A stretch of DNA of 64,000 nt from Lachnospiraceae bacterium JLR.KK002 (GTDB taxonomy: Bacteria; Bacillota; Clostridia; Lachnospirales; Lachnospiraceae): contig JAYMNP010000001.1 of NCBI GenBank assembly GCA_036941025.1, positions 3,432,501-3,496,500 of the forward strand. The letters run 5' to 3'. Below are positions 24,352-59,404 of the stretch, in pieces (within the stretch, counting starts at the first letter, position 1; each line of letters opens with the position of its first letter). The notes below the pieces were generated by a model. That model searched no databases. It saw only the letters and a program-made list of their open reading frames with translations, and was not told the DNA's origin. The position numbers and the translations under genes were made by a program.

Positions 24352-24498
24352 TTATTTCCCGTCATTTAAAATTTTGCTTACCTCTTTCATGGATTTTTCC
24401 ATAACCGTTATCTTTTTTGCAAGCTCCGGTTTTTTATAGGCCATTTCTGCTATTTTCTGTTTCATATTTTTTTTTCGTTTCAAAATGGCATACTCCAT
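24352..24498 (-). CDS. possible 48-residue Lys-rich peptide
   Basis: A short minus-strand frame after the kinase stop, rich in Lys, Glu and Met (ending KEVSKILNDGK). No good ribosome binding site. It may be a real small gene, a remnant or chance. Confidence 0.3.
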   Translation of the reverse strand: MEYAILKRKKNMKQKIAEMAYKKPELAKKITVMEKSMKEVSKILNDGK

Positions 24499-24529
24499 TT
24501 TTCTTTTATTATATGCATATATCAGATTA

Positions 24530-27768: not shown

Positions 27769-29925
27769 TTACATATTTGCAATTAATGCTGCAATGTCTT
27801 CCGGACTCATTGCTCTGTTTGGGTCAGATAAATCCGGCAGAGGAGGTTTTATATCCTCCACAATTCCTGCAGTTGTATCCGGCAGTTCTTCTGTTGCGGC
27901 ATTCGCAATCAATGCTGCGATTTCCTCCGGTCTCAGGATACCGGCTGATGCGCCTGGCTCCGGAACTGGTACTATTTTCGGTGCTGTATTCAGTTCCGGC
28001 ATTACCAATGGTTCAATGATTGGCTCCGGAATTGGCTCTGATTCCTCTATGGGTTCTTCATCAGCGCTTGCCAGTAAAGCTGCAATATCTTCCGGCGTCA
28101 TCATATTGCTGATTTCCGGAATCACTATTGGTTCTGGTTCCGGCATGGGTTCTTCCAGTATTACCGGCTCCGGTTCCGGCATTTCAACCGCTTCTTCTAT
28201 CACTGGTTCCGGCTCTGCTACAACCGGTTCAGATTCCACTATTGGTTCTTCCAGTATTACCGGCTCCGGTTCCGGCATTTCAACCGCTTCTTCTATCACT
28301 GGTTCCGGCTCTGCTACAACCGGTTCAGATTCCACTATTGGTTCTTCCAGTATTACCGGCTCCGGTTCCGGCATTTCAACCGCTTCTTCTATCACTGGTT
28401 CCGGCTCTGCTACAACCGGTTCAGATTCCACTATTGGTTCTTCCAGTATTACCGGCTCCGGTTCCGGCATTTCAACCGCTTCTTCTATCACTGGTTCCGG
28501 TTCGGCTGTTTCTGCTATTACAGGCTCCGGTTCCATAACTGGTCCAGATACAGGTTCTTCCAGTATTATTGGTTCCGGTTCTGTCTCCGTTATCAGCGCT
28601 TCCTCTGCTAAAGGCTCCGCTATTAATTCTGACTCCGGCATGGATTCTTCCATTACTGCTGATTCCGGCATTGAAATCAGTTCCGGTTCTGGTTCCGGCA
28701 TGGATTCTTCCAGTATTACCGGCTCCGGTTCCGGCATTTCAACCGCTTCTTCTATCACCGGTTCTTCCACCACAGATTCCGGCTCCGGTATTTCAACCGT
28801 TTCTTCTATCACTGGTTCTTCCACCACAGATTCCGGCTCCGGTATTTCAACCTCTTCTTCTATCACCGGTTCTTCCGCCACTGGTTCCGGCTCTGCTGCA
28901 ACCGGTTCAGATTCCACTATTGGTTCCTCCAGTATTACCGGTTCCGGTGTCGCTTCTTCCAGTATTACTGGTTCCGGTTCTGGCATGGGTTCTTCCAGTA
29001 TTACCGGTTCCGGTTCTGGTATCGCTTCTTCCAATATTGTCGGTTCCGGCTCTGGTTCCGGTATCAGCTCCTCCAGTATTATCGGTTCCGGCTCTGGTTC
29101 CGGTATCGGTACAGCATACGAAGTTTCTTTCAGAGTAGAAACCTGGTCCATCACAGACTGGGGAATCTGGTCAATTTTCTCCGGTATTACATCAATAATA
29201 TCTTTTATAAGACTGGAAGACTGCTGGATTTTTTCTATTAATTCCTTCTGTTCATCATCCATTCTCTGCAGCTTTTTCTGATAAATTTCATCCTGTTTTG
29301 ACAAAGACTCATCCTGTTTCGATAAAGCCTCATCCTGCTTCGATAAAATCGCATCCTGTTTTGACAAAACTTCATCCTGTTTTGACAAAATTGCATCCTG
29401 TCTTGATGAAACTTCATCTTTCATACCATAAATGGACTGTTGAAATTCTTCCATCTGTTTTATCATCTGATCGTTGGAATTCATCAGTGCATTGGCATTT
29501 TCCTTACTGCGGCTGATTGTTATCTTTGCAACTTTTTTCTGGCCGTCCATCAGAGATTCCAGCATATTTGCAATCTTTTTCTGATTTACAGAATTTGCCT
29601 TTTCCAGAGGCATAATTTTCTGACCGATAAAATTCAGTTTTTCATCCAGCTCCTGAAATTTTTTCTGTGAAACCAGATGTGTGGATTTTTCCGCTTTCAT
29701 GATATCCACATACTGTTCTTCCGAGCGCTGACTTTCTTTTTCTCCCAGCTTCAGCCATCTGCTGATTGTCAGGCTGACGCAGATTAAGGTTACGAGAGCA
29801 GCAATTCCAAGAACCTGATAATTATTCTGCATATTAACGATAACATAAATATCAAATAAAAATACAAATAATGTTATAACCGATATGGCCTGTACTTTTA
29901 TCTTTCGTGAGCTGTCATTTTCCAT
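27769..29925 (-). CDS. membrane-anchored Pro/Glu repeat protein with PEDIAALI motifs
   Basis: 718 residues. Two N-terminal TM helices (about 11-30 and 35-53) precede a coiled coil (about 60-270) containing heptad-like SKQDEVLSKQDA repeats. Then come about 370 residues of acidic PEPEPVILEEP repeats. The C-terminus has three copies of a short motif: MTPEDIAALLAS, LRPEEIAALIAN and MSPEDIAALIAN (the last at the extreme end). The motif recalls the FliM/FliN N-terminal peptide LSQxEIDALL. Likely a spacer-tethered scaffold that displays docking peptides in the cytoplasm or at the wall. Family not recognised. Confidence 0.8.
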   Translation of the reverse strand: MENDSSRKIKVQAISVITLFVFLFDIYVIVNMQNNYQVLGIAALVTLICVSLTISRWLKLGEKESQRSEEQYVDIMKAEKSTHLVSQKKFQELDEKLNFIGQKIMPLEKANSVNQKKIANMLESLMDGQKKVAKITISRSKENANALMNSNDQMIKQMEEFQQSIYGMKDEVSSRQDAILSKQDEVLSKQDAILSKQDEALSKQDESLSKQDEIYQKKLQRMDDEQKELIEKIQQSSSLIKDIIDVIPEKIDQIPQSVMDQVSTLKETSYAVPIPEPEPEPIILEELIPEPEPEPTILEEAIPEPEPVILEEPMPEPEPVILEEATPEPVILEEPIVESEPVAAEPEPVAEEPVIEEEVEIPEPESVVEEPVIEETVEIPEPESVVEEPVIEEAVEMPEPEPVILEESMPEPEPELISMPESAVMEESMPESELIAEPLAEEALITETEPEPIILEEPVSGPVMEPEPVIAETAEPEPVIEEAVEMPEPEPVILEEPIVESEPVVAEPEPVIEEAVEMPEPEPVILEEPIVESEPVVAEPEPVIEEAVEMPEPEPVILEEPIVESEPVVAEPEPVIEEAVEMPEPEPVILEEPMPEPEPIVIPEISNMMTPEDIAALLASADEEPIEESEPIPEPIIEPLVMPELNTAPKIVPVPEPGASAGILRPEEIAALIANAATEELPDTTAGIVEDIKPPLPDLSDPNRAMSPEDIAALIANM
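28148..28530 (-). repeat. 96-bp tandem coding repeats
   Basis: Units at 28148, 28244 and 28340 are identical or nearly so, with a fourth partial unit at 28436. Each encodes 32 residues (VESEPVVAEPEPVIEEAVEM plus PEPEPVILEEPI). Flanking units are diverged. The identity suggests recent slippage expansion. Confidence 0.85.
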
Positions 29926-34056: not shown

Positions 34057-35310
34057 TTGGTCCTGCTCCTGCTGTCCATACTGACACTGGAGTCAGCGGA
34101 TTCCATCCGTTTCCTTTACAGACATTTCCTGTCAAAGCTAACAGATAAATCCCTGAATGCCTTTTACTATGCCTGCTCCTATGCCAAAGTGGATTATTCC
34201 AGGTTTATGAATGCAACAGCATCTATGGCATTGAAACTAATCCCGAAATCCTTAGAGACGCAGCCCGTTTTTTTATGCATGGATGATACCATTGTTCCCA
34301 AATATGGAAAGAAATTTGAGGATGTCTCAAAACTCTTTGACCATTCCGCGCACAACGGCAGCGGCTACCTGAATGGGCACTGCTTTGTAAGTGTCATGCT
34401 CTGTGTGCCAATGTGGGATAAAGGCAAGATTGTTTACCAGGCGTTTCCGCTTTCCTACCGTATGTGGCAGAAAGAAGAGTCAAAATTAAAGCTGGCTGCT
34501 TCCATGGTACGCCAGGCCATGCCTGAATTACAGGAAAAGGCGAATGTCATTATCCTATGCGACAGCTGGTATACAAAAGGGGATCTGGTTTCTGTCGTGG
34601 ATGAATACCCAAACCTTGGCCTAATCGGAAATGCAAGGTATGACTCTGTCCTTTATGACCTTGCCCCGCAGCCGACCGGAAAAAGGGGCAGGCCTGCAAA
34701 ACATGGGAAACGTCTTTCGGCGGAAAAAGATTTTACACTTTCGGATGAAAAAATAGGCGGTTATTATATTGGGATGCGCCGTGTCCTTACAAATATTTTC
34801 GGCACAAGGGAAGTTTTTGCCTATGTGACAGCCACAGAGAAGGAAGGCGGTTCCAGGCGCCTGTTCTTCAGTACGGTTTTCCCCACACAGCTGCAGATTT
34901 TTTGTGCATGGCAGGAAAAGACCCCCCTGAACCAGACGGGGAGTGCATGGATGGATTACATCCCCTTGTTCCTGTACTCATTCAGATGGAAGATAGAAGT
35001 CAGCTATTACGAACAGAAAACCTTCTGGTCACTATGCAGCTATATGGTGCGCAGCCGGAAAGGGATTGAAATGCTGGTTAATCTGATCAACATAGCTTAT
35101 TGTGCGATGAAACTGCTGCCATATCAGGATGAAGCATTTTCAAAGTACCGTAGGGAAAGCGCACAGGATTTCAGGTTTGTGCTCAGCGAGCGGATCAGGC
35201 AGGAGGTATTTTTTGCCACTTTCGTGAAAAAGAGCGAAAGTATAATAAAATCATCTGCCCTTATGAGAGCCTTAAAATACCTTGTTCAGCAAAAGGAGCG
35301 CTATTTATAA
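34057..35310 (+). CDS. DDE transposase (IS701-like), copy 1
   Basis: At least 417 residues. The catalytic Asp is in CMDDTIVPKYGKKFE, a second Asp in ILCDSWYTKGD, and the Glu-bearing helix is in WKIEVSYYEQKTFWSL. There is no ATG at the start; TTG 34057 is used here, but the frame is open to about 33945 and translation may begin earlier at another non-ATG codon. The protein matches the second copy. Family placement as IS701/DDE_5-like is by motif only. Confidence 0.85.
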   Translation: MVLLLLSILTLESADSIRFLYRHFLSKLTDKSLNAFYYACSYAKVDYSRFMNATASMALKLIPKSLETQPVFLCMDDTIVPKYGKKFEDVSKLFDHSAHNGSGYLNGHCFVSVMLCVPMWDKGKIVYQAFPLSYRMWQKEESKLKLAASMVRQAMPELQEKANVIILCDSWYTKGDLVSVVDEYPNLGLIGNARYDSVLYDLAPQPTGKRGRPAKHGKRLSAEKDFTLSDEKIGGYYIGMRRVLTNIFGTREVFAYVTATEKEGGSRRLFFSTVFPTQLQIFCAWQEKTPLNQTGSAWMDYIPLFLYSFRWKIEVSYYEQKTFWSLCSYMVRSRKGIEMLVNLINIAYCAMKLLPYQDEAFSKYRRESAQDFRFVLSERIRQEVFFATFVKKSESIIKSSALMRALKYLVQQKERYL

Positions 35311-40297: not shown

Positions 40298-41764
40298 CAC
40301 CACTTTACAACTATTATAAATAGCGCTCCTTTTGCTGAACAAGGTATTTTAAGGCTCTCATAAGGGCAGATGATTTTATTATACTTTCGCTCTTTTTCAC
40401 GAAAGTGGCAAAAAATACCTCCTGCCTGATCCGCTCGCTGAGCACAAACCTGAAATCCTGTGCGCTTTCCCTACGGTACTTTGAAAATGCTTCATCCTGA
40501 TATGGCAGCAGTTTCATCGCACAATAAGCTATGTTGATCAGATTAACCAGCATTTCAATCCCTTTCCGGCTGCGCACCATATAGCTGCATAGTGACCAGA
40601 AGGTTTTCTGTTCGTAATAGCTGACTTCTATCTTCCATCTGAATGAGTACAGGAACAAGGGGATGTAATCCATCCATGCACTCCCCGTCTGGTTCAGGGG
40701 GGTCTTTTCCTGCCATGCACAAAAAATCTGCAGCTGTGTGGGGAAAACCGTACTGAAGAACAGGCGCCTGGAACCGCCTTCCTTCTCTGTGGCTGTCACA
40801 TAGGCAAAAACTTCCCTTGTGCCGAAAATATTTGTAAGGACACGGCGCATCCCAATATAATAACCGCCTATTTTTTCATCCGAAAGTGTAAAATCTTTTT
40901 CCGCCGAAAGACGTTTCCCATGTTTTGCAGGCCTGCCCCTTTTTCCGGTCGGCTGCGGGGCAAGGTCATAAAGGACAGAGTCATACCTTGCATTTCCGAT
41001 TAGGCCAAGGTTTGGGTATTCATCCACGACAGAAACCAGATCCCCTTTTGTATACCAGCTGTCGCATAGGATAATGACATTCGCCTTTTCCTGTAATTCA
41101 GGCATGGCCTGGCGTACCATGGAAGCAGCCAGCTTTAATTTTGACTCTTCTTTCTGCCACATACGGTAGGAAAGCGGAAACGCCTGGTAAACAATCTTGC
41201 CTTTATCCCACATTGGCACACAGAGCATGACACTTACAAAGCAGTGCCCATTCAGGTAGCCGCTGCCGTTGTGCGCGGAATGGTCAAAGAGTTTTGAGAC
41301 ATCCTCAAATTTCTTTCCATATTTGGGAACAATGGTATCATCCATGCATAAAAAAACGGGCTGCGTCTCTAAGGATTTCGGGATTAGTTTCAATGCCATA
41401 GATGCTGTTGCATTCATAAACCTGGAATAATCCACTTTGGCATAGGAGCAGGCATAGTAAAAGGCATTCAGGGATTTATCTGTTAGCTTTGACAGGAAAT
41501 GTCTGTAAAGGAAACGGATGGAATCCGCTGACTCCAGTGTCAGTATGGACAGCAGGAGCAGGACCAATGTCTCGGCTGTAGGAATGGAACAAGCCTCAAA
41601 ATAAATGTAAAAATAATGATAAAGTCTACCAATTATAGTTTTTTCGTTGTATAATAAGTCTGTCGTACAGGATCACTTTCTTTCGTATTTTTTTGTTTGC
41701 AAACTTATTATACATCAGAAAGTCCTGTATGACATTTTTTTTATGGAAAAGTTGTAAAGTGGTG
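40298..41764 (-). mobile_element. 1467-bp DDE insertion sequence (IS701-like), copy 2
   Basis: The same length and termini as 33860-35326, in the opposite orientation. Unlike copy 1 it has no target duplication (flanks ATTCCATA and TATTTATC). It splits a reading frame cleanly. Confidence 0.9.
40314..41567 (-). CDS. DDE transposase (IS701-like), copy 2
   Basis: 417 residues, the same as copy 1 at every position compared by eye, with TTG as the apparent start. The identity implies recent transposition or gene conversion. The two copies are about 5 kb apart in opposite orientation, so recombination could invert the segment between them. Confidence 0.85.
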   Translation of the reverse strand: MVLLLLSILTLESADSIRFLYRHFLSKLTDKSLNAFYYACSYAKVDYSRFMNATASMALKLIPKSLETQPVFLCMDDTIVPKYGKKFEDVSKLFDHSAHNGSGYLNGHCFVSVMLCVPMWDKGKIVYQAFPLSYRMWQKEESKLKLAASMVRQAMPELQEKANVIILCDSWYTKGDLVSVVDEYPNLGLIGNARYDSVLYDLAPQPTGKRGRPAKHGKRLSAEKDFTLSDEKIGGYYIGMRRVLTNIFGTREVFAYVTATEKEGGSRRLFFSTVFPTQLQIFCAWQEKTPLNQTGSAWMDYIPLFLYSFRWKIEVSYYEQKTFWSLCSYMVRSRKGIEMLVNLINIAYCAMKLLPYQDEAFSKYRRESAQDFRFVLSERIRQEVFFATFVKKSESIIKSSALMRALKYLVQQKERYL

Positions 41765-47152: not shown

Positions 47153-47317
47153 CTAAAGCCTTTTAACATTAATTTTTCTTTGCTCAATATTTTTTTCGTA
47201 TTGACGAATAATAGAGTCATTTAGTTCTTGGCTGGGTTTTTGTTTTATTCTAAGCGCTTTTCTCAATAACAGTTCTATCTCGTTTTTATTGTTATTGCCT
47301 TTTGAATGATTCTTCAT
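47153..47317 (-). CDS. 54-residue basic protein coupled to the amidase
   Basis: Starts at ATG 47317, which overlaps the amidase stop (ATGA), with AAAGGAG 10 bp upstream. It is Lys/Asn-rich, begins MKNHSKGNNNKNEIELL and is soluble. Not recognised; the coupling and codon pattern make it likely real. Confidence 0.6.
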   Translation of the reverse strand: MKNHSKGNNNKNEIELLLRKALRIKQKPSQELNDSIIRQYEKNIEQRKINVKRL

Positions 47318-48126
47318 AAGTTTTCATCTCCTTTTATCTTGTTAAAAATTCCCTCTGCCATTCTCTGCGCCAAGATTTCCTGATAGTCGTCATTTAACAG
47401 CTTTTGACTCTCAGAATAATTTGAAAGAAATCCCATTTCCACCAAAACAGCAGGTATTTGAGTATTCCGCAAAACATAATAGTTTTCGGTTTTTGCATCC
47501 CTCGTTTTCACGTCATTGTTTAGCGAAACTGCATGGATTATGCTTTCTGCATATGCTTTGCTTTCCGTTGCGTCTGGACTATTGTAATAACATTCCAAAC
47601 CTGCTATCTGCGCATCATCTTCATAATAGTTGCAATGAAGGCTGATAAAAAAATCTGCATTGGAGTCGTTTGCAACAGAAGTCCGCTGTGCAAGGCTCAT
47701 CTTCTCATCGGAGTTTCTGGTCAGAATAACTTCAATATTGTTATCCTCCAGAATCGTTTTTAACTTCAATGCAACCGAAAGGTTAATATCCTTTTCTATA
47801 ATTTTTCCACTGACAGTCCCACCGTCACTTCCGCCATGTCCTGCATCTATGATGACGCAAAATTTTGAAACGTAGTCAGCTGTTGAAGTAATAGGAGCAG
47901 CGCCATTGCCAGCGTTCGTATCTGTATATGTATTGGTATATATATCTGTTTTTTTATCTTCCTTTGTAAACTTTTCGCATATGTAAAGACAGCCGCAAAC
48001 CATAAGTATTATCATTATTACTGGTATCAGTATAACGACTGCTCTGAGCAGATAAGCTATCACAAGCCGTTTGACTTTTTTTCTCTTCTTGAGTTTTTTT
48101 CTCTTTCTGTGTTGTTTTTTATCCAT
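47314..48126 (-). CDS. N-acetylmuramoyl-L-alanine amidase (Amidase_3)
   Basis: 270 residues. A very basic cytoplasmic start and a TM (about 24-48) are followed by a linker and the Amidase_3 domain with zinc ligands in DAGHGGSDGG, the Glu in IIEKDINLS, SLHCNYY and the catalytic Glu in VEMGFLSN. It cleaves the MurNAc to L-Ala bond of peptidoglycan. Its own promoter region carries the TTGACC-N5-TTGACT repeat (48178-48194), so it is probably controlled by the cluster's response regulator. Confidence 0.9.
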   Translation of the reverse strand: MDKKQHRKRKKLKKRKKVKRLVIAYLLRAVVILIPVIMIILMVCGCLYICEKFTKEDKKTDIYTNTYTDTNAGNGAAPITSTADYVSKFCVIIDAGHGGSDGGTVSGKIIEKDINLSVALKLKTILEDNNIEVILTRNSDEKMSLAQRTSVANDSNADFFISLHCNYYEDDAQIAGLECYYNSPDATESKAYAESIIHAVSLNNDVKTRDAKTENYYVLRNTQIPAVLVEMGFLSNYSESQKLLNDDYQEILAQRMAEGIFNKIKGDENL

Positions 48127-48177
48127 TGCCGCATTTGTTCCTCATTCCTTTTTCCAAAATATATTGTTTCATAGGAA

Positions 48178-48194
48178 AGTCAAAAACTGGTCAA
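48178..48194 (-). promoter_or_regulatory. regulator box upstream of the amidase
   Basis: The minus strand reads TTGACCAGTTTTTGACT, two TTGAC half-sites 11 bp apart. Shared with 55231-55247 and 59388-59404. Confidence 0.65.
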
Positions 48195-48208
48195 GAATTA
48201 GGCACTAT

Positions 48209-50218
48209 TCAACGACTTTTTGATAAAACGATGTTCTCCCCACTTTCTTTTGCTAATATATAAATGTTGCCAGTATCACAAGTAACCGACATTGCGGGCG
48301 TATCGCTCATCAATCTTTTGTTGTTCCCATCCTTATTGCAGGAATATACACGACTTCCGTCTGTTCTGGATACATAATAAATCGACTGCTCATCAATGCA
48401 GAAATCATACGCAACTACTTTTTCATAAGTAAAAGTTTCGCCGCTTAGAACATGATACCTTGTTAAAACCGATTGCTCGTTTTTGTAAAAAATGTTTTCT
48501 CCATCGAATGAGATATTTCCACTTGTAGGGATGTCAAGTTTTGTAATGCCTTTCGTGAAACGGTTTACTACTGTTATACCATCATTGCTAATGAAAAATA
48601 TGCTGTCATTATTTATGAAAAAATCGTGATGGAACTCTAAAAACTTCCATTTATCACCCGTCTCATAATCAATGTCAAAGAGGGAACGACCAGAATTTGT
48701 AATCTGTTCAAAAACGATATTTTCCTCAAAGGTATCTAAATTAAGTTCTACCACCGACACCTTTGTTATGCTGCTGTTATAGTTTCCGACACGGTTCACA
48801 TAGCTTTCCGTAACCGATGTCGTATAATATAGATATGGTGAACATACACAAAACGCACATACCTTTTCTTCATCAGAAAACACCCCAAACATAGGTGAGC
48901 GTACTAAATGAAGCATTTCTTCCGTAGAAACATTTTTAAGATAATAGTCAAAAGTTTCTGTGTCCTGTGTTATTTCATAGCCCATACAATCATATTCCAC
49001 CGATGAATTATAAACAAAATTCTGGCTTTTTCCGTTATCTGAACATCCTGTCATTGTCAATACGAAACTAAGTATGATAGCAAGAGTCGGTACATTTCGC
49101 ATTTTCCTTGTTTTCATTTGCCATTTGTTAGAATTGCTCCGTAAAATCCAAGCGGCAGCCAAAATACATAAGAATACGGATACTGAAAACAAAATCAGCA
49201 GTGTAATAGTATGAATCTCTGCAAAAATAATTTTCTCATCACCTGTAAAAGCATCACTTGAAACAATATCTCCTGCAAAAAAGTCTGTTCCGAGCAGAAA
49301 TGGCAAAGGCAAAGGCAGCCGGTAAATAATTGTTTTGGATAGACCTACATAGGGAATAATGACCGATACTGCACCTGCAAGCAGGGTCACCGCATACTTT
49401 TTCGCCAAAACAGAAATAAACATAAGAAGTATTGTTAAAAACACGCTGCCAAAAAGACGGAGCAATCCTATATATACATATCCCTCGAATAAAGTTATGC
49501 TTTTGTTGCTGCCTGCAAAGTAACTAAGGCTTTGGATGGGATAATTTCCATTAGGCAGTCCATATTTGAGGCTGTAAAATCCGTATTCAATGAGCGATAT
49601 GCTTACGCACATCAAGAGGACGCCCGAAATAATAATGAGCAGCTTATGCAAAGAGCTTTTTCGTCCCTCTTTGGAGGTCAAAATCAAAGCATCCATCTGG
49701 CAGCTATACTCGGAACAGAATACGGGCGTAACCAAAAGCAAAATGCCAAGGAACAGGACAAAATTAAGCGTACCTCTGCCAAGAAGCCCCGTCCATCCGT
49801 TCGTTTGAAGAAAATAGCGGTTTTTGGCATTTTCGCAGGTGTAGAGATATTGCTGATAAACGACCTCAAATCCGTTCTGATGTTCCAGAACCTTTTCAAT
49901 TTCTTGGCTCTCCTTCTTATATTCGCTTTCACTGATTTTGCCATCATAGTAGCTTTGCAAAAGATAATTTTGTTTCTCCTTGGCGTCTGCAATTCTCTCT
50001 GCTTCCTGTTCCAGATAAAGAGAAGATTCATCGGTACAGTATCCATTTACCTTATCAAGATACCATTCATATTCACTTTTGTACTGTTCCATTGCACTAT
50101 TATAAGGATTGTCTGATGCAACGAGCCATACAGTTCCAAACAATAGGACAATGACGATATAGAGCATCCCCTTTTGGTGGAGCATTATCTTTTTTATTTC
50201 GTACATGAATCCAGACAT
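48209..50218 (-). CDS. ABC-2 type permease fused to a lipoprotein-like sensor domain
   Basis: 669 residues. The N-terminal half is an ABC-2 membrane subunit: TM near 18-35, a long extracytoplasmic loop, then five TM segments to about 365. Without any stop the frame continues into a second module that begins like a lipoprotein precursor (MRNVPTLAIIL..., MTGCSDNG). It goes on as a beta-propeller-like domain with FFISNDGITV, IFYKNEQSVL and IYYVSRTDGS blades. Internal ATGs at 49117 and 49102, with an AAGGAAA-like site, could give a separate lipoprotein. Starts at 50218 after AGGAGG and overlaps the previous gene by 25 bp. Confidence 0.8.
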   Translation of the reverse strand: MSGFMYEIKKIMLHQKGMLYIVIVLLFGTVWLVASDNPYNSAMEQYKSEYEWYLDKVNGYCTDESSLYLEQEAERIADAKEKQNYLLQSYYDGKISESEYKKESQEIEKVLEHQNGFEVVYQQYLYTCENAKNRYFLQTNGWTGLLGRGTLNFVLFLGILLLVTPVFCSEYSCQMDALILTSKEGRKSSLHKLLIIISGVLLMCVSISLIEYGFYSLKYGLPNGNYPIQSLSYFAGSNKSITLFEGYVYIGLLRLFGSVFLTILLMFISVLAKKYAVTLLAGAVSVIIPYVGLSKTIIYRLPLPLPFLLGTDFFAGDIVSSDAFTGDEKIIFAEIHTITLLILFSVSVFLCILAAAWILRSNSNKWQMKTRKMRNVPTLAIILSFVLTMTGCSDNGKSQNFVYNSSVEYDCMGYEITQDTETFDYYLKNVSTEEMLHLVRSPMFGVFSDEEKVCAFCVCSPYLYYTTSVTESYVNRVGNYNSSITKVSVVELNLDTFEENIVFEQITNSGRSLFDIDYETGDKWKFLEFHHDFFINNDSIFFISNDGITVVNRFTKGITKLDIPTSGNISFDGENIFYKNEQSVLTRYHVLSGETFTYEKVVAYDFCIDEQSIYYVSRTDGSRVYSCNKDGNNKRLMSDTPAMSVTCDTGNIYILAKESGENIVLSKSR

Positions 50219-51435
50219 TTTATCCTCCTGTCCCGGCAATGGCAGTTCTTTTTAGAAAGTATAACCATTACCGTTATTACAACCATTCCCACTATTACGG
50301 CAAAAATAATAGCTGCTAAAAAACTTTGTATTGGATAGCCCGCAAAATCGATAAATTCCGTCTTGCCGAACAGAATGCGGTTAGTGAGCAGCGAGTATGG
50401 GTTTATTATCTTTAGCCAAATATTGCTTGAGTAACTCTGCGACGCACCTGTAATAATCAAACATAAGGCTGCTCCAAAATCAGCGACAAATGGGATAAGA
50501 GCATTACGCCAAAACATGGAAATCAGTAGGAATACCATACTCATAGTCCATATGCCGATTGCTTTTGTAATTGCGGATAGAACTACGTATTGCCACAAAT
50601 TGCAGTTTACCGCAGCCGTACTGAAATTGCTGATGGCATACAGAGGAAGATTATATCCTTCCATTGTTCCAAATGAAAAGGAAAAGCCAAGATAATCCAG
50701 AACGGAAAACCATATTACAACACTTATTACAAATAAAGTAACTGCAACAATTTTAGCTAATACGGTTTTTTTACCGCCATTAGGGTTCGTCAGTAACAGC
50801 ATATCCATCTGCGTTTCCTTTTCATAGACGAAAGTGCTGATAATCCCATATAAACAAAGTAACAAAACCAATATATTTGAAAAATCATAGTTCAAATAAT
50901 AGTTATACATTTCCTGATAGGCAAAAGCTGGTATATTCCGTCCAGAATAAAGATTGTAAATAACACTGTTTTTACGCACTTCAAAGTTAAGTCCTTGTTC
51001 CTTGTAAAATGCAGCATTTTCTTTTGCCTTTTTTGCCACTTCCGAAGCATAAGTCCGATAATTATAAAAATATTCCATAGGCTCTACATAGTATTTTTCT
51101 AAGATGTTTTCGTCACTATAAATATTTCCCGTCATCGTATTCGGGTCATCTGTGTCTGTGCTTGCCGTCATATCAGCCGTAGCATCTTCTAACGGCTGAT
51201 ATAGGTCAAGAAGATTGTTGATTTTATCGGTAGTTATCTCTCCACGATATTTCTCATAGAGCTGCCAATACACGCTGTTCCAACTGCGGCTGTCATTCCC
51301 GTCTGCCAAGTAGGAATAGGAATGAAATTCATTATTTATTTTGAACAGGTTTATTACGCTGAACAGAATAAGTACAACAAGTATTGACCGCTTGCAAAAT
51401 AATTTATAAAATTCATATCTGATTAAGCGTGTCAT
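50194..51435 (-). CDS. ABC-2 type permease
   Basis: 413 residues, six to seven TM segments with a large extracytoplasmic loop after the first (about 35-185), as in bacteriocin or peptide exporters and immunity permeases. I start at ATG 51435 (MTRLIRYEFYKLF) after GGAGAG; an upstream Met overlaps the ATPase stop and reads through a repeated segment. Works with the ATPase encoded just upstream. Confidence 0.85.
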   Translation of the reverse strand: MTRLIRYEFYKLFCKRSILVVLILFSVINLFKINNEFHSYSYLADGNDSRSWNSVYWQLYEKYRGEITTDKINNLLDLYQPLEDATADMTASTDTDDPNTMTGNIYSDENILEKYYVEPMEYFYNYRTYASEVAKKAKENAAFYKEQGLNFEVRKNSVIYNLYSGRNIPAFAYQEMYNYYLNYDFSNILVLLLCLYGIISTFVYEKETQMDMLLLTNPNGGKKTVLAKIVAVTLFVISVVIWFSVLDYLGFSFSFGTMEGYNLPLYAISNFSTAAVNCNLWQYVVLSAITKAIGIWTMSMVFLLISMFWRNALIPFVADFGAALCLIITGASQSYSSNIWLKIINPYSLLTNRILFGKTEFIDFAGYPIQSFLAAIIFAVIVGMVVITVMVILSKKNCHCRDRRIKCLDSCTK

Positions 51436-51503
51436 TTTTTCTCTCCAATGTCTTTCGACTCTCGCGGCATTCGTCAAATGCTCGTGCAAGCACGGCGCTT
51501 GAC

Positions 51504-52367
51504 TCATTGCCCGCGGAAATAATATAAAAATACATCTTCCAAGTTAGGGGAAGCTTTTACTGCGTTTGTTGCGGGCGAACTATCGCTTACAATCTTTACT
51601 GAAAAATTTTCGCCCTGCTGTTTCATATTACTGACATAATATTTGTTACTAAGGCAGGCAGCCTCTTTGGCGTTTGTTGTCACTTCCCACACTTTACCAT
51701 AGATACTCTGTTCTAATACGTCGGTAGTTCCTTGCGTAATCAAAGCGCCTTCTTTGAGAATGATAATCTCTTTTGCAATACACTCGACATCGGAAACGAT
51801 ATGGGTAGCCAGCAAAATCGTCCGTCCCTGTGCAAACTGTGAAATCAAATTGCGAAAGCGGATGCGTTCACTTGGGTCAAGCCCTGCTGTAGGCTCGTCT
51901 AAAATAAGGATTTTAGGGTCGCCTAACATTGCCTGGACAATGCCGACTCTCTGCCGCATACCACCAGAAAGTGCGCCAATTTTTTTATCTTTCGCATCTA
52001 AAAGGTTGACAATGCCCAGAAGCTCCAAAGCCCGTTCTTTTCCTTGTTCCGCAGGGATTCCTTTTAACGCACACATATATAACAGGAAATCCATTACCGT
52101 AAAATCCCGATAGAAGATAGGGTATTGCGGCATATATCCGATTTTTGATAAAAAGTCTTTGCCCATTTTTTTTGCATCTTGACCGTCTATCAAAACAGTT
52201 CCATTATCGCTGCCTAAAATGCCGACAAATATATTTATCAGCGTTGTTTTTCCTGCGCCGTTAGCCCCTAAAAGTCCATAGATGCCCTCCGAGAGTTCAG
52301 TGGTAAAATTCTTTAAGGCATATTTACCTTTATACTGTTTTGAAATATTCTGAAATGATACTTTCAT
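51504..52367 (-). CDS. ABC transporter ATP-binding protein
   Basis: 287 residues. Walker A GANGAGKTT (about 35-43), Q-loop IGYMPQYP, signature LSGGMRQR, Walker B ILILDEPTAGLD and H-loop LLATHIVSD are all intact. The C-terminal extension is typical of ABC-2 drug or lantibiotic transporters. Starts 6 bp after the lipoprotein stop. Energises the two permeases that follow. Confidence 0.93.
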   Translation of the reverse strand: MKVSFQNISKQYKGKYALKNFTTELSEGIYGLLGANGAGKTTLINIFVGILGSDNGTVLIDGQDAKKMGKDFLSKIGYMPQYPIFYRDFTVMDFLLYMCALKGIPAEQGKERALELLGIVNLLDAKDKKIGALSGGMRQRVGIVQAMLGDPKILILDEPTAGLDPSERIRFRNLISQFAQGRTILLATHIVSDVECIAKEIIILKEGALITQGTTDVLEQSIYGKVWEVTTNAKEAACLSNKYYVSNMKQQGENFSVKIVSDSSPATNAVKASPNLEDVFLYYFRGQ

Positions 52368-52373
52368 AGATAA

Positions 52374-53630
52374 TTACCCCTTAAAGCCAAATGTTGTTAT
52401 TAAGGTGCTTACCTCGCCAATACCTCGCCCAAGCACAACGATACAGGCGCCGGATTCATCCAAAATTAAAACCTGCGGGACACGCTGGAAATAAGTACTG
52501 TTGTTGTCCTTGACCGTTTCGGTATGGATAACCTTTCCCGATGCTGTATCATAAATATTTATTGTTACGCTGGCTTCTCCCAAAATGGAAGTAGCAACAT
52601 ATTTCCCTTGCTCAGAGCAGAAAACCCCGTCCTTTCCTTCGCTGCTGCCTGAGAATGTAATCTTTTTTTCTGTATTAGATGCAGTATCAAGCATTAGCAG
52701 CGTTCCATTATTTTTGTTAAAGCTCTGGGGCATTACAAGTAAGTTCCCGCCCTTTTGCACTTCTTCAACATCCACTTCATAGTCGGCTTTTGGGGTGATA
52801 CTAAGACTTGCATTGTCTATGGATACTGTTCCATAAACAGAGACTCCATCCCCGCCATTAGAGCTTATTCCCATGCCTACATAAGTTAAAGTTTTATCTC
52901 CCGTAAATGCAAGACTATCCATCGTTACAATCTCCATATTATTTGCCCTGCCATTTTCGGAATAGTTCAGAATGGCATGTACCTTTTGGGAAGAAGTATC
53001 ATAGAGATAAAGTCCTTGTAATCCGCCGAAAGCGATTTGTTTTCCGTCCTGTGAAATGGTGACACTCGCCATTTGGAGGACAGAATCATCATTTAGCAGC
53101 CCACGAAAGGAAATTGTATTCTCAACAACAAAATCCTTATTCAATAGGTATCCTTTTACTCCATTACTGCTTTGTGCCGTTGCAAATGAGTCCGTGCTGC
53201 CGCTATTTTCTTCACCGACAATGAAATACCCGTCCGAATAAGGCTGCACACATAACTCATTCAAAAAAATATCCGCACTTGCTATAATCTCGCTTTTCCC
53301 AGTATCATAAAGATAGAGCTTATCTGCTGCAACAATAATCCGATTGCCATCAGCGTAATAACAGCCGCTGACCTTTCCAGAGAAAGCCGAGCCATTCACT
53401 GTGCCAACATCCATAGTATTTTTATCTGCATCACTATTCTGTGGGTTGGACTTATTATTGTCGCTGCTTCCGCTTCCTGTTTTTTCCGATGTGTTATCTT
53501 CTTCGGATTGTGGCGCATCTATGGAGCTTCCGTTTTCAGAACGATTCACATTTTCCTGACTGTTACCACAAGCTGACAGATTAAGAGCAAAAGCAAGTAT
53601 AAGCATAATGCACATGAATTTCATTTTCAT
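52374..53630 (-). CDS. lipoprotein with beta-propeller-like repeats
   Basis: 418 residues. Signal with lipobox LSAC (Cys21), a low-complexity Ser/Asn/Asp linker (about 25-75), then WD/PQQ-like repeats (IIVAADKLYLYDTGKSEI, IAFGGLQGLYLYDTSSQKV, VTINIYDTASGKV). Faces the outside of the membrane. Probable sensor, substrate-binding or decoy partner of the exporter; AAGGAGG before the start. Confidence 0.8.
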   Translation of the reverse strand: MKMKFMCIMLILAFALNLSACGNSQENVNRSENGSSIDAPQSEEDNTSEKTGSGSSDNNKSNPQNSDADKNTMDVGTVNGSAFSGKVSGCYYADGNRIIVAADKLYLYDTGKSEIIASADIFLNELCVQPYSDGYFIVGEENSGSTDSFATAQSSNGVKGYLLNKDFVVENTISFRGLLNDDSVLQMASVTISQDGKQIAFGGLQGLYLYDTSSQKVHAILNYSENGRANNMEIVTMDSLAFTGDKTLTYVGMGISSNGGDGVSVYGTVSIDNASLSITPKADYEVDVEEVQKGGNLLVMPQSFNKNNGTLLMLDTASNTEKKITFSGSSEGKDGVFCSEQGKYVATSILGEASVTINIYDTASGKVIHTETVKDNNSTYFQRVPQVLILDESGACIVVLGRGIGEVSTLITTFGFKG

Positions 53631-53643
53631 TTTTCAGTCCTCC

Positions 53644-54141
53644 TTATTTAGATAAAATAGTTTCGTTTTTACTTTCAGTCATTTGAGTATTAGATTTTTC
53701 ATTTTCCCCACCATTTGCATTAAGATTACCGCTTCCTTTTTGGGGCGTTGCAGAGCTGTCAAATATTTCAACAGTTACGGATTGCTGACCGTTATCTTTA
53801 GACTTTTTGGAACTGTTATCTGCATTATTCTCGAATGGAATTGCATTATTGACCTTTTTATCCGTATCTGATTCCGTGCTGCTTTTTTCCTTAGTGCCAT
53901 CCTGTGGTTTAGCGGCATCTTTATCATTATCGTTTGGCTCTGTGGGTCTGGTGTCTCTGCCGACATTCTCTGGCTTTATAATATTATTGTCGATATTATC
54001 AGCAGGAATGCTGTTATTGGGCTGTGTCGTTATTATATCATTTTGGGATTTCTCTGTATTATCATCTTGACCGCCGCTACATGCTGACAGGGCAAAGGTC
54101 AAAACAAGCATAAACAACATACATATCAATTTTGTTTTCAT
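53644..54141 (-). CDS. low-complexity lipoprotein
   Basis: 165 residues. Signal with lipobox LSAC (Cys21), then an almost wholly Asn/Asp/Lys/Ser-rich disordered region without an evident fold. Lies 13 bp before the propeller lipoprotein and 3 bp after the next lipoprotein gene. A flexible cell-surface spacer or decoy is possible. Not a recognised family. Confidence 0.75.
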   Translation of the reverse strand: MKTKLICMLFMLVLTFALSACSGGQDDNTEKSQNDIITTQPNNSIPADNIDNNIIKPENVGRDTRPTEPNDNDKDAAKPQDGTKEKSSTESDTDKKVNNAIPFENNADNSSKKSKDNGQQSVTVEIFDSSATPQKGSGNLNANGGENEKSNTQMTESKNETILSK

Positions 54142-54144
54142 TTT

Positions 54145-55182
54145 TCAGCCCTCCTTATAAAGCAGAATTGAGCCTGTCTTATTTGTAGAACAATCATTGC
54201 TTGCAGCAACAGCTACCGCATAGAAAGTATTGAAGTCATCTAATTTAGAGGTGTCTATGATGGCTTCAATTATCCACACATTTCCTTTGCTTAATGTTGC
54301 ATCGTATGAAATCACTTTATCAAACGATATAGGCTTATGATTTAAGAAGAATGATATGCCATACCTTGTACCCGGCGTTCCGCAAATCGTGTAACGCACT
54401 GTAAGTGTATCTTTATTGGTAAGATTGATATTGTCATACACTAATTCGCCATCATAGGAAATAGTCGAATAAACGCCGCTATCCAATGTATCCATAGTAA
54501 TTCCATCCCAACCGTTTTTCACAAGCTCATTCTCAATAAAAGAGGAAGTGATTTTTTCTTCTGCAACGCTGACATCACGAAAAATATTTTCACTTTCTCC
54601 ATAAAAGATATCGCTGTCTGGAGCATCCTCATTAAAATGCAGTTTCAGCACTCTTTCAAGGTGTTGGTGATACCAGCCGTAACTTGATGTTTCTTTCATA
54701 TCGGGTTGGAAAGCGGGATTGGTAATGCTCATGATTGTAATATTTAAAGTATCACCTTTTTTCCCCGTGTTCGGTGTAAACACAAACGAAAATTTTTCTT
54801 CGTGTTTTTCTGATGTTTGGAAACAATGGAGATACTCATATTCCGCCCCCGTATCATTTACCTTGTATGCCTGTGGCTTTCCGTCCAAAAAGAGCAGGAA
54901 GCCTATGTTATCCAATTTTCCCTCTGATACAAACTGATAGTCCAAGGTAAATTCTCCGCCGTTATACTCATACGGTAAAACACTCTGGTCATCAGCTCTG
55001 GCGGGACTCGCTTCCTCGTGGCTGAGAAAACCTAAAGAGCCATCTTCCTCTGATTTTGTGAATGGATTTTCTTCCGTGTTTTGCGGGGGAGCTTTTCCGT
55101 CCTCTATGTTATAATTTCCGCAAGCTGTCATAGTGAATAGCAAGCCGCAAATCATAACTAATGATAATATTCGTTTTCGCAT
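54145..55182 (-). CDS. lipoprotein, first gene of the exporter operon
   Basis: 345 residues. Signal with MTAC lipobox (Cys21), a short linker, then two beta-rich modules (about 70-180 and 215-345; GISFFLNHKPISF echoes GFLLFLDGKPQAY), suggesting an internal duplication. ATG 55182 follows CAGGAGG. Preceded by the TTGACC-N5-TTGACA box at 55231-55247, so the operon running to 48209 starts here. Ligand unknown. Confidence 0.8.
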   Translation of the reverse strand: MRKRILSLVMICGLLFTMTACGNYNIEDGKAPPQNTEENPFTKSEEDGSLGFLSHEEASPARADDQSVLPYEYNGGEFTLDYQFVSEGKLDNIGFLLFLDGKPQAYKVNDTGAEYEYLHCFQTSEKHEEKFSFVFTPNTGKKGDTLNITIMSITNPAFQPDMKETSSYGWYHQHLERVLKLHFNEDAPDSDIFYGESENIFRDVSVAEEKITSSFIENELVKNGWDGITMDTLDSGVYSTISYDGELVYDNINLTNKDTLTVRYTICGTPGTRYGISFFLNHKPISFDKVISYDATLSKGNVWIIEAIIDTSKLDDFNTFYAVAVAASNDCSTNKTGSILLYKEG

Positions 55183-55230
55183 TGTTTATCCTCCTGTCAT
55201 GTTTGATGTATTTCAATTATAAAAGCCAAA

Positions 55231-55247
55231 TGTCAAAATGCGGTCAA
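55231..55247 (-). promoter_or_regulatory. regulator box upstream of the lipoprotein/ABC operon
   Basis: The minus strand reads TTGACCGCATTTTGACA, followed after 9 bp by TATAAT. The same box-to-minus-10 spacing occurs upstream of the response regulator (9 bp to TAAAAT). Confidence 0.7.
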
Positions 55248-55374
55248 GGAATAGAAAATTACATAAGAAAAACCAACAAACTGTGATTTCTCACAAGTCT
55301 GCTGGTTCTACGTCTTATGTGTCTTACTCTTTATGTATTTATGTTGCTCGATAAATGGGAATTTTTAAATATTT

Positions 55375-55806
55375 TCAGTGCTTTTTTGAAGAAACGGCGG
55401 CGCAAACTACAAGCAAAATTAAGTCAATCCAGTATCCAATACAAATGTACCCAACAATCGGATGGATCAATTTTATTTCATTCGTCAAAACAACAGCAAG
55501 CAGAAGACCTATCAAAAGAAGGACAATGCCGATACCTGCCGAAAAGCGAACAATCTTGTCCATCTGTGCAAAAGAACCGATACACAGTATGATAGCGGAA
55601 ATCCATACAGCCAGATGAAATACAACACCAAGATAATTAAATGCTCCTACCCCCTCTTGAAAAAGTATTTTAAAAGTTTCAGTAAAAAACCATGAATCCT
55701 GATTGACTATCAGCCCATTAGGAAAAATATTATACATTGGTACAGCAAAACTGCATAACAATAGAACAACTGAAACTGTTTTCAAAATTTTATTTTTTCG
55801 TTCCAT
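55375..55806 (-). CDS. four-TM membrane protein
   Basis: 143 residues with four predicted TM segments (about 9-27, 62-80, 85-105, 112-132). Not recognised; reminiscent of small immunity- or DUF-type membrane proteins. ATG 55806 after GGAGG. Sits between the exporter operon and a regulatory module, transcribed the same way. Confidence 0.7.
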   Translation of the reverse strand: MERKNKILKTVSVVLLLCSFAVPMYNIFPNGLIVNQDSWFFTETFKILFQEGVGAFNYLGVVFHLAVWISAIILCIGSFAQMDKIVRFSAGIGIVLLLIGLLLAVVLTNEIKLIHPIVGYICIGYWIDLILLVVCAAVSSKKH

Positions 55807-56043
55807 CTACGTTTCCTCCGTAAAATAAATAATCTCAGTACACCTTATTAAGATTAAGGCAAAGGTATCATATTTTGATTTTCCAATGTGTCAAATGGGA
55901 AGTTGTCATCTCACAAATTCTTTGAAAGATACAAGACCAAATCGTCATCATTTTTGCATTCCTCATATGGTTTATCTCATCCATCAATCCCGAATTTGCG
56001 ACGAGGGAAACACTTTCATCAGCGTTTTCCTAAATGGAACATA
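55807..56043. other. spacer
   Basis: No gene or clear signal recognised. Moderately AT-rich, without good ribosome binding sites in any frame. Confidence 0.4.
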
Positions 56044-56772
56044 TTACTTGGTGTCAGCTTCCTCATTGAGGGGCTTATAGTTGCTGTCCATGTAGTTCTT
56101 TTTCCCGAAGGGAACGTAATTTTCATCCAATAAAATCAAATTTCCGTTTCCCAAATCAGGGAACTGCCGCGCAACCTCCTTGAGCACTTCCCATTCATCT
56201 CTGGTATTTTCTTTGTTGTCTTCCTCCACCTGTCTTAGTGCTTCTTGAACAGACTGTTGATCTGCCGTTCCCCAATAGAGAGGATGGGGTTGGAAGGAAG
56301 AATGGTAATCGCCGCCCTCATAGCAGAAAAAACAGGAGCAGGGGATTTTTTCAAATAGAATTTTTTGCGCCCCGTCAAGCTCCTTTACCTCCAGACAGTA
56401 TCACCCATTTACGGTTGCCGCACCATCCCGCGCGGTCATGTTTGCGATTGCCATGATAGTAAGGGGTTCCGTTTTCACGATCATGCCGGGAACCAAAAGC
56501 CCCTCCTCGTACATTTCCCGTAAATACTCGTCAGAAAATTTTCCGACAGCCCGCCATAGGAAAAACAATGCAAGAAGGAAACAGATAACGGCGGGAATCC
56601 AGCTTTTAAACAAAGAAATTCCTGACATACATAGGAAGCACACGCAGATTATCGCGGAGCTTCTCCGCTTTTTGACGACGGCTTTTATTATTTCATCCTT
56701 TTGCCGTATCCGGCTCACATCTGCATGGATGCCGGATTTTACACTTGCCTCAAATTGTGAATAATCGACCAT
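56044..56772 (-). pseudogene. membrane protein gene with an in-frame TGA
   Basis: The first 123 codons (56772 to 56404) encode a protein with two TM helices and a domain starting GLLVPGMIVKTEPLTIMAIANM. After a TGA at 56401-56403 the same frame stays open for a further 118 codons (YCLEVKELDGAQKILFEK, later WEVLKEVARQFPDLGNGN and KKNYMDSNYKPL). The continuation is sensible protein sequence and has no start codon of its own until 56229. One nonsense-mutated gene is the best reading; a recoded Trp is less likely. Resembles DUF3239-like proteins, not certain. Confidence 0.65.
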
Positions 56773-56805
56773 TTTTTCCTCCGTTTCTTACGTTTCTGTA
56801 GATTG

Positions 56806-57255
56806 CTAATATTTTTTATAGATATATTCAGTAAAAATCCGATAAAAACAATATACAATCCAGACCACCCAGGTTATTTCCCACTTGTGTGATATTACAG
56901 AAATCATCAAATAAAGAACAGCAACAGTAATAGCAATCATCCAATTCGTTATTTTTTTCTTCCTGGTTATTTCATTGGCTGATACTTTTACAACATCTGA
57001 CAACAGACTTTCATATTCGTTATCAACGTTGTTTTCTGTTCTTTCACCCTTGAATAATTCTGCTATGGAAATCCCCAGGGATGCAGCTAATGGTTCAATA
57101 AGAGATACATCTGGAAATCCGATACCTCGTTCCCATTTTGAAACAGCTGCACTTGATACTCCCAATTCATTCGCTAAATCCTGCTGCGTGCGATTTTGTT
57201 CTTTCCTGATAGCGGCAATCAGACTGCCTGTTTTTTGAACGTTCAATATTTTCAC
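56806..57255 (-). CDS. XRE-family HTH regulator with membrane helices
   Basis: 149 residues. HTH at about 12-66 (TQQDLANELGVSSAAVSKWE), then two TM helices near the C-terminus (about 105-125 and 128-145). Membrane-bound XRE regulators of this kind often sit with a small membrane partner. Next to the broken membrane-protein gene at 56044-56772, which may have been that partner. ATG follows AAGGTG. Confidence 0.85.
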   Translation of the reverse strand: MKILNVQKTGSLIAAIRKEQNRTQQDLANELGVSSAAVSKWERGIGFPDVSLIEPLAASLGISIAELFKGERTENNVDNEYESLLSDVVKVSANEITRKKKITNWMIAITVAVLYLMISVISHKWEITWVVWIVYCFYRIFTEYIYKKY

Positions 57256-57402
57256 CTTCTTTCCGATTTCATAATATCACAAGAAACACCATATTCAAGA
57301 AACGCTCCGTTGAAATGTTAAACGCTGCATTGGATTTATGCAAATCCTCCTTGGTTGGCTTTAAGCACGGCACTTGACTCATTGCTCGCAGAAATAAAAA
57401 TA
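57256..57402. repeat. spacer with a segment duplicated from the exporter region
   Basis: ATGAGTCAAGTGCCGTGCTT (minus strand, ending near 57363) together with the preceding ~15 bases closely matches 51484-51531, the end of the ABC ATPase gene and the following spacer. It looks like the scar of an ABC gene once located directly after the kinase. Confidence 0.5.
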
Positions 57403-58686
57403 TCAACTCATTTTGTGGACTGCAATTTTAATTGTTACAGAAGCTCCACTCGGAGTAACATTTGAAAGTTCTAAACATCCGCCGTGTTTCTGGCTAAGGA
57501 CACGGCTTGTAGCCAATCCCAGTCCCATATGTTCACCCGTTTTATCCTCAGAATAAAGAAAGGTATTCTTATTGCGGAGCATTGCCTTTGAAAATCCTTT
57601 GCCGTCGTCTGTAATGGTTATAGTAAGTGCATCATCAATAAATGTGTATAGGAAACTCACTTTGCTATTAGCATACCGAATGGCATTAGAAAAGATATTC
57701 TCAACAATACGGTAAAATATTTGCTCATCTAATTTTACTTGACATTCGGATACTGTAGAATGATATTCAATCTCCAGGCTATGCTGTCCTGCAATAAGTG
57801 AAAGGCTTTCTGTAGCATTTTTCAAAAAATCTGGTAACTGAACGACAGAATACTTTGTTTCGGTTTCTTCAATGGTATTCAAATCACGAATATAATCTGT
57901 ATAACGCTCAAGTCGTTTTGAGGTTATCGCAAGGTTGGATAGTGTATGCTGCAATTTCTCATCATTCAGACTTCCATTTGTAAAGCATTGCTGCATATAT
58001 TCGACATAGCCCTCTATAATCGCAATCGGATTTCTGAGGTCATGTGCCACTGATGCCTGTAAAATTCTCCGCTGCTCAATCATATTCCATAGCTGTCGAT
58101 TGTTATCATACAAAGCTTGCCGCATTTCTTCAAAAGCTGTGCAGAGCCTGCCTAATTCATCGTTACTGTTATAAGCAACTGTAAAATCAAGGTCTTGCCC
58201 CTTTATGTGCTTTGTTGCATCTGCAAGAATCTGAATTGGCGGCGATAGCTTTTTCCTATAAAACCACCATGCACATAACATGATTCCTATAACTGAATAG
58301 ATAAAAGGAAGCCCTGCCATAAAAATGCTTATTGCTCTATATAGTAACTGTTGTTTTGGGCGGAGTGTGGAGAAGCTGGATTCTATTCTCTCTATTGTAA
58401 ATTCTGTATCCCCCAACTTTTCTTCTTCCGATTTAGCGGGGGTAAGTATAGACATTTTAGAAGGTTCATCAAGTATCAATCTTTGCTTTGCCTCAGATAC
58501 CGTCCCATCTGCCATAATAGTCTGTGTATGCAGCCAAATTTCCTGTGAGTCGGGGAGGATATTCTTCTGCACACGGTAACAGATATAAATTGTCAAAGCA
58601 GAGGATGTAAAAACAATTATCATTGTAATGGCAACCGTCCAGATAAATGCACTTTTAATAGATTTTACTTTCTTCATTTTTTCCAT
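57403..58686 (-). CDS. sensor histidine kinase (VanS-like)
   Basis: 427 residues. TM1 at about 12-32, an extracytoplasmic loop of ~80 residues, TM2 at about 118-140, HAMP (FYRKKLSPPIQILADATK), and HisKA with the His in ASVAHDLRNPIAI. N-box (VENIFSNAIRYA) and GLGLATSRVL. The second Met (58677) overlaps the regulator stop as ATGA and is an equally good start. Partner of the regulator encoded just upstream. Confidence 0.92.
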   Translation of the reverse strand: MEKMKKVKSIKSAFIWTVAITMIIVFTSSALTIYICYRVQKNILPDSQEIWLHTQTIMADGTVSEAKQRLILDEPSKMSILTPAKSEEEKLGDTEFTIERIESSFSTLRPKQQLLYRAISIFMAGLPFIYSVIGIMLCAWWFYRKKLSPPIQILADATKHIKGQDLDFTVAYNSNDELGRLCTAFEEMRQALYDNNRQLWNMIEQRRILQASVAHDLRNPIAIIEGYVEYMQQCFTNGSLNDEKLQHTLSNLAITSKRLERYTDYIRDLNTIEETETKYSVVQLPDFLKNATESLSLIAGQHSLEIEYHSTVSECQVKLDEQIFYRIVENIFSNAIRYANSKVSFLYTFIDDALTITITDDGKGFSKAMLRNKNTFLYSEDKTGEHMGLGLATSRVLSQKHGGCLELSNVTPSGASVTIKIAVHKMS

Positions 58687-59348
58687 CTATAGCCCATCCC
58701 CCAAACTGTTTCTATATATTCCTTGCCCGTAGCTTCAGTCAGTTTATTTCTGATTTTTCGGATATGCTCTTTAATAACATTGCTGTCGCCCTCAGCATTA
58801 AAGCCCCATACGGCTTCGTATATCCGTTCTTTATCAAATATCTGGTTAGCGTTACTCATCAGAAACTCGACAATATCAAATTCACGATTTGATAAGTTCA
58901 GCGACCTTTCTCCATAAAAAATTTTGCGTTCAGCAAGATTTACAATTAAGCCTTGTGAAGATACGATTTTAGGAGTACGCTTGCTTCTCTCGTCCCTCCG
59001 CAGGTGAGCCGCCACCCTTGCGGTCAATTCTTGTAAACTAAAAGGCTTGGTTATATAGTCATCGCCGCCGACCTGCAAACCGTTTACCTTGTCCTGTTCT
59101 GTAATCCGAGCAGTCAAAAACAAAATAGGGCAGGTGACATTATTACGGATAATCTTGCATAGCTCCAATCCGTCCATTTCGGGCATGTTGATGTCAAGCA
59201 AAATTAAATCTGGATATGTATTCAGCATTGATATTGCCTTCTCCGCATCTTCCGCTGCAAAAGTCTCATATCCGCAATCCTGCAAGTGGCTTGATAATAA
59301 TTCGGTCAGCATTTTTTCATCATCAACAATGAGTATCTTATATGCCAT
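58674..59348 (-). CDS. OmpR-family response regulator (VanR-like)
   Basis: 224 residues. The receiver has phospho-Asp in LILLDINMPEMDG, Thr in FLTARITEQD and Lys in YITKPFSLQE. The winged helix carries LNLSNREFDIVEFLM and SNVIKEHIRKIRNKL. The promoter region carries TTGACC-N5-TTGACT (59388-59404), as do two other promoters in the cluster, so it is probably autoregulated and controls the exporter and amidase. Confidence 0.95.
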   Translation of the reverse strand: MAYKILIVDDEKMLTELLSSHLQDCGYETFAAEDAEKAISMLNTYPDLILLDINMPEMDGLELCKIIRNNVTCPILFLTARITEQDKVNGLQVGGDDYITKPFSLQELTARVAAHLRRDERSKRTPKIVSSQGLIVNLAERKIFYGERSLNLSNREFDIVEFLMSNANQIFDKERIYEAVWGFNAEGDSNVIKEHIRKIRNKLTEATGKEYIETVWGMGYRWKK

Positions 59349-59387
59349 AGTAAAAACCTCCTAATCTAAAATATTTTAAAGCTTAAA

Positions 59388-59404
59388 AGTCAAAAAGTGG
59401 TCAA
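59388..59404 (-). promoter_or_regulatory. regulator box upstream of the response regulator gene
   Basis: The minus strand reads TTGACCACTTTTTGACT, then 9 bp, then TAAAAT. Direct half-sites 11 bp apart suit an OmpR-type dimer. Confidence 0.7.

Follow-up and report, generated by a model that had tools for sequence, protein, structure and literature searches.

Layout of the cluster

The window, i.e. the whole stretch of 64,000 nucleotides that was analysed (Lachnospiraceae bacterium JLR.KK002, GCA_036941025.1, contig JAYMNP010000001.1, positions 3,432,501 to 3,496,500), carries on its minus strand, from 59.4 down to 47.1 kb, a gene cluster encoding a response regulator, a histidine kinase, an insert of three open reading frames (ORFs), three lipoproteins, an ATPase, two permeases, an Amidase_3 protein and an ORF of 54 amino acids (aa). 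A direct repeat, TTGACC-N5-TTGAC, hereafter “the box”, occurs in it three times. The cluster is probably a self-contained two-component/ABC-exporter island placed under its own regulator through this box. Its parts are, from the regulator promoter onward:

59388..59404, minus strand: box 1, TTGACCACTTTTTGACT, regulator promoter
59373..59378, minus strand: -10-like TAAAAT, 9 bp past box 1
58674..59348, minus strand: response regulator, OmpR/PhoB class (Response_reg and Trans_reg_C)
57403..58686, minus strand: sensor histidine kinase (HAMP, HisKA, HATPase)
55375..57255, minus strand: variable insert, non-core (XRE regulator 56806-57255, 123-aa ORF 56401-56772, membrane protein 55375-55806)
55231..55247, minus strand: box 2, TTGACCGCATTTTGACA, exporter promoter
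55216..55221, minus strand: -10 TATAAT, 9 bp past box 2
54145..55182, minus strand: lipoprotein 1
53644..54141, minus strand: lipoprotein 2, accessory
52374..53630, minus strand: lipoprotein 3
51504..52367, minus strand: ABC transporter ATPase, DrrA/GldA-like
50194..51507, minus strand: ABC-2-like permease 1 (true start probably 51435)
48209..50239, minus strand: ABC-2-like permease 2 with C-terminal beta-propeller fusion (true start probably 50218)
49043..49117, minus strand: internal lipoprotein signal and lipobox in permease 2, MKTRKMRNVPTLAIILSFVLTMTGC, residues 375-399
48178..48194, minus strand: box 3, TTGACCAGTTTTTGACT, amidase promoter, lineage-specific
48163..48168, minus strand: poor -10, AACAAT, 9 bp past box 3
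47314..48126, minus strand: membrane-anchored amidase, Amidase_3
47153..47317, minus strand: small 54-aa ORF, has relatives, 4-bp overlap with the amidase stop

The domain search that assigned the regulator and the kinase gave Response_reg (105.4 bits) and Trans_reg_C (84.3 bits) for the former, i.e. a receiver and a winged-helix C-terminal domain. This agrees with the OmpR-type class named in an earlier sequence-only reading of this DNA; the best NCBIfam VanR model scores 186.8 bits against a cut-off of 350. The kinase ORF overlaps that of the regulator, and about 80 residues separate its two predicted membrane helices. A structure model of lipoprotein 1 has two Ig-like beta-sandwich domains. 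The expected catalytic and phosphorylation motifs were found in the kinase, the regulator, the ATPase and the amidase; in the last (Amidase_3, 188.6 bits) they are DAGHGG, IEKDINLS, SLHCN and LVEMGF, which we take to be the catalytic motifs of the family. The amidase scores 137 bits with the CwlD model, below its cut-off of 221.55.

The box in the source genome and in relatives

The three 17-mers lie on the minus strand where the sequence-only reading had placed them, each upstream of a unit as it claimed: they end 39, 48 and 51 bp ahead of the ATGs of the regulator (59348), lipoprotein 1 (55182) and the amidase (48126). Nine bp past the second half-site stand TAAAAT, TATAAT and AACAAT respectively, and a -10 had been claimed for the first two only. 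The exact box matches three times in the entire 4,276,026-base genome, every time inside the cluster (backward control pattern, 1). TTGAC-N6-TTGAC has four genome matches, three of them in the cluster (backward control, 13), and the box with its -10 and consensus flanks, allowing up to three mismatches, retrieves the cluster's three boxes only (control, 5). Boxes with up to two mismatches are not in excess in the window (15, against a shuffle mean of 18.9). It is the exact matches, with their placement and conservation, that carry the signal; loose matches do not.

Scanning one genome per species with an alignment of lipoprotein 1 gave 77 related loci, and dozens of relatives share the island. 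Their record titles read Lachnospiraceae, Oscillospiraceae, other Clostridia or just “bacterium”, and names such as muris and intestinalis indicate that these bacteria are probably gut-living. At gene starts, boxes were counted as plus-strand TTGAC-N6-TTGAC within 150 bp upstream. They precede lipoprotein 1 in 74 of the 77 loci and, leaving out one match below 60% identity, the regulator in 53 of 59; a detectable amidase has one in 11 of 34, a number that includes partial matches, 21 covering at least 80%. In total the loci span 1.35 Mb and contain 149 boxes, where uniform bases would give 2.6. TANNNT stands exactly 9 bp past the box at all 74 lipoprotein-1 promoters, where no other spacing exceeds 6/74, and at 51 of the 53 regulator promoters. 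Among diverged promoters, chosen such that the half-sites have 2.0 bits by construction, 14 regulator promoters gave 0.32 bits per position over the upstream 40 bp, 1.05 in the 6-bp spacer, 1.25 in the -10 and 0.72 over the downstream 28 bp; the corresponding values for 8 lipoprotein promoters were 0.71, 1.53, 1.71 and 0.63.

Eleven of the 149 boxes fall outside the three upstream regions. Three, in loci lacking a detectable amidase start, lie past permease 2 (L048, L052, L057), three are displaced regulator boxes (L049, L070, L072) and one is unexplained (L098). The other four lie on the minus strand and belong to additional copies or remnants. L112 has a regulator-kinase pair on the strand opposite lipoprotein 1, with one box before the pair and one about 0.6 kb past it; in L109 a second lipoprotein-1 gene starts, also on the opposite strand, with one box before this start and one about 1 kb upstream of that.

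The box was also used blindly: together with TATNNT, and with no other information, it gave 19 matches in 15 of 200 family genomes (backward control, 11). Nine of these matches are in regulator-kinase-exporter clusters, one in the source genome and two each in genomes G013, G152, G133 and G056; the other matches are about as numerous as those of the control. Two further clusters were found in this way, in G133 (regulator 50% identical) and G056 (70%), neither reached via permease 2, which matched other contigs of those genomes. In both clusters another box lies where the kinase gene ends, ahead of the exporter genes. Since no lipoprotein gene was recognised in the G133 cluster, the common core is the regulator, the kinase, two boxes and the ABC exporter. 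The island is patchy, strong matches to permease 2 being found in the source genome and three others of the 200. The copy in G013 (L034, L035) is decaying: its permease-2 gene is split into pieces about 23 kb apart, and its permease-1 translation has a stop.

Nine relatives, chosen from 61 aligned sequences, share 80-100% identity with the window in the recognition-helix region of the regulator (residues 189-203). That of G133 is within this range, yet its DNA-binding domain is only 45% identical. Such conservation fits one regulator subfamily with one site.

Third box, permease 2 and variable parts

The third box has a much narrower distribution. A box occurs within 300 bp past permease 2 in 14 of the 18 loci whose permease 2 has an identity of 90% or more; none of the 47 others in which the region is covered has one. 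At its -10 position, 13 of these 14 loci have AACAAT and one has AACATA. Direct reading of more distant loci shows the amidase, or a remnant of it, within about 130 bp past the permease with no box, which suggests that the amidase was first read from the exporter promoter. Of the three promoters that the sequence-only reading had assigned to one system, those of the regulator and the exporter are well supported, their box being conserved, tied to the regulator subfamily and nearly absent elsewhere in the genome; the case of the amidase is weaker, with a box confined to the closest clade and a poor -10. In G152 (L036, 4637-5035) the Amidase_3 domain is replaced by a short stretch of different sequence after an amidase-like membrane anchor.

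Permease 2 joins an ABC-2-like permease to a beta-propeller via an internal lipoprotein signal, of which the lipobox Gly-Cys is invariant in all 117 aligned sequences. We tentatively propose, as a serious possibility, that it is a polyprotein, with a seventh helix that works as a lipoprotein signal peptide, yielding a permease and a lipid-anchored propeller. The invariant cysteine would be lipidated by Lgt at the outer face, with cleavage by Lsp at this point, so that one gene would give both products in a fixed ratio. If this is true, the surface partner of the exporter is made by signal-peptide processing of the permease itself. We found no description of such an internal lipobox in the one open-access library searched.

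Three lipoprotein genes are present, as had been said, and lipoprotein 2 is better regarded as accessory, with a match over at least 80% of its length in 2 of the 77 relatives. In 42 of 61 loci more than 300 bp separate the kinase from lipoprotein 1 (maximum 6.9 kb, contents varied), and every one of the 42 has an intact box 2; the placement of this box would keep the exporter under the predicted regulator control despite inserts. An insertion hot spot with very varied genes lies just upstream of box 2 (window; L044, L061, L077, L107, L113).

In the window the cluster is flanked on one side by a serine recombinase and a TnpW-like protein, and on the other by CHAP, lysozyme-like, thioester-domain and ParB-like genes; because of these genes, it appears to sit among mobile-element genes in the source genome. 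At least one of eight such context proteins is present in 16 of the 77 related loci (E 1e-10, half coverage), whose flanks extend at most 10 kb and often end at contig ends, which limits this count. This only suggests that the conserved unit is the cluster and not its surroundings. Elsewhere in the window are two DNA-identical 417-aa ORFs in opposite orientation (34057-35310, plus strand; 40314-41567, minus strand) flanking about 5 kb, a 718-aa protein with long Pro-Glu repeats (27769-29925, minus strand) and a further two-component system, lacking the box, next to a stretch with an ABC ATPase (22849-26654).

Proposed circuit and likeness to known systems

The conservation of the box with its -10 and the box-led search make it very probable, in our view, that both the regulator promoter and the exporter promoter are activated by the regulator, which is of the PhoB/CiaR type. 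The layout of the OmpR/PhoB class, i.e. an 11-bp direct repeat in place of the -35 and a -10 about 10 bp further on, is found at both, and partly at the amidase (AACAAT). The kinase would sense an extra-membrane signal and phosphorylate the regulator, two molecules of which would then sit head to tail on the pair of TTGAC half-sites, spaced by one helical turn. Taking the place of the -35, they would bring RNA polymerase to the -10 that lies 9 bp further on. Such replacement and activation are predicted by analogy, because CiaR and WalR use alike repeats. The outcome would be more regulator and kinase (positive autoregulation) and more of the lipoprotein-exporter operon, and one lineage would have gained an extra box ahead of the amidase. 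The ATPase, the two permeases, the surface lipoproteins and the wall amidase may together remove or block an envelope-active compound and remodel the wall; by comparison with similar modules, protection from envelope-active peptides, e.g. a peptide antibiotic, would be the most likely role.

Several observations weigh against this proposal. The peptide-antibiotic role is deduced from gene content only, and the ATPase scores 164.4 bits with the lantibiotic-immunity model TIGR03740 (cut-off 309.75). At the regulator promoter TANNNT is also found at 14 bp (32/53) and 2 bp (16/53), so the exporter promoter follows the 9-bp rule more cleanly. Six of the 59 regulator starts and three of the 77 lipoprotein starts have no exact box within 150 bp; among these, L049, L070 and L072 have one further upstream and L088 has one with a mismatch, and the starts in L050, L051, L086, L112 and L118 show none there. 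Finally, the loci were all found via lipoprotein 1 and are hence related, so the counts are not independent.

The regulation could be as proposed and the exporter serve to secrete or assemble a surface product instead of protecting the cell. The Ig-like and propeller surface domains and the amidase would suit this as well, as would the adjoining CHAP, lysozyme-like, thioester-domain and ParB-like genes. We nevertheless consider it unlikely: none of the cluster genes was recognised as encoding a candidate secreted substrate, and a regulator-kinase pair with an ABC exporter is typical of peptide-antibiotic responses. It is highly improbable that another, global regulator, e.g. a WalR relative, binds the boxes. 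WalR-type regulators do use hexamer-N5-hexamer repeats (PMC4168254, in the part available), but many sites would then be expected, and the source genome has outside the cluster no exact TTGACC-N5-TTGAC and a single TTGAC-N6-TTGAC. Moreover, the box accompanies the regulator gene of the cluster down to 50% identity. Least credible of all is that the TTGAC repeats are mere -35 hexamers of ordinary sigma-70 promoters: all three sites precede genes and TTGACA is the consensus -35, but the distance from hexamer to -10 is 20 bp for the first and 9 bp for the second, neither near 17, both half-sites are kept at the 11-bp period in most relatives, and the source genome has just four TTGAC-N6-TTGAC repeats.

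The island resembles several known systems. With LanRK-LanFEG/LanI immunity it shares a two-component system, an ABC ATPase with two permeases, and lipoproteins; in contrast, its ATPase falls below the TIGR03740 cut-off, it adds an amidase and a propeller fusion, and no biosynthesis genes were recognised among the neighbours examined. BceRS-BceAB modules likewise have a regulator-kinase pair adjoining an ABC transporter. They differ in that the island has two ABC-2-like permeases, neither with an FtsX family match (Pfam, E 0.01) as a BceAB-type permease would have, and a kinase with the stretch of about 80 residues between membrane helices described above. The CiaRH system of streptococci is alike in its two-component regulator and in its box, a TTTAAG-N5-TTTAAG direct repeat with a -10 about 10 bp downstream; CiaR controls 15 promoters in Streptococcus pneumoniae (PMC3091779, in the part available). 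The half-site and the recognition helix differ, TTGACC and NVIKEHIRKIRNKL in the window instead of TTTAAG and VVEVYVSKVRKKL, so the regulator does not fit CiaR; the exact box is moreover confined here to one cluster. WalRK/VicRK also uses a direct repeat, TGTWAH-N5-TGTWAH (PMC4168254), and has envelope-remodelling targets, but is described as essential and present in all Firmicutes (PMC9210968, in the part available), unlike the patchy island.

We found no paper describing this gene set in the one open-access library searched, and the island is apparently undescribed, though of a familiar kind of stress-response module. Its permease with an invariant internal lipobox offers a test of lipoprotein maturation inside a multi-span membrane protein. 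The specificity of the box predicts from sequence the binding site of the regulator and probably its whole regulon, and the island would provide a self-contained control circuit from poorly studied Clostridia.

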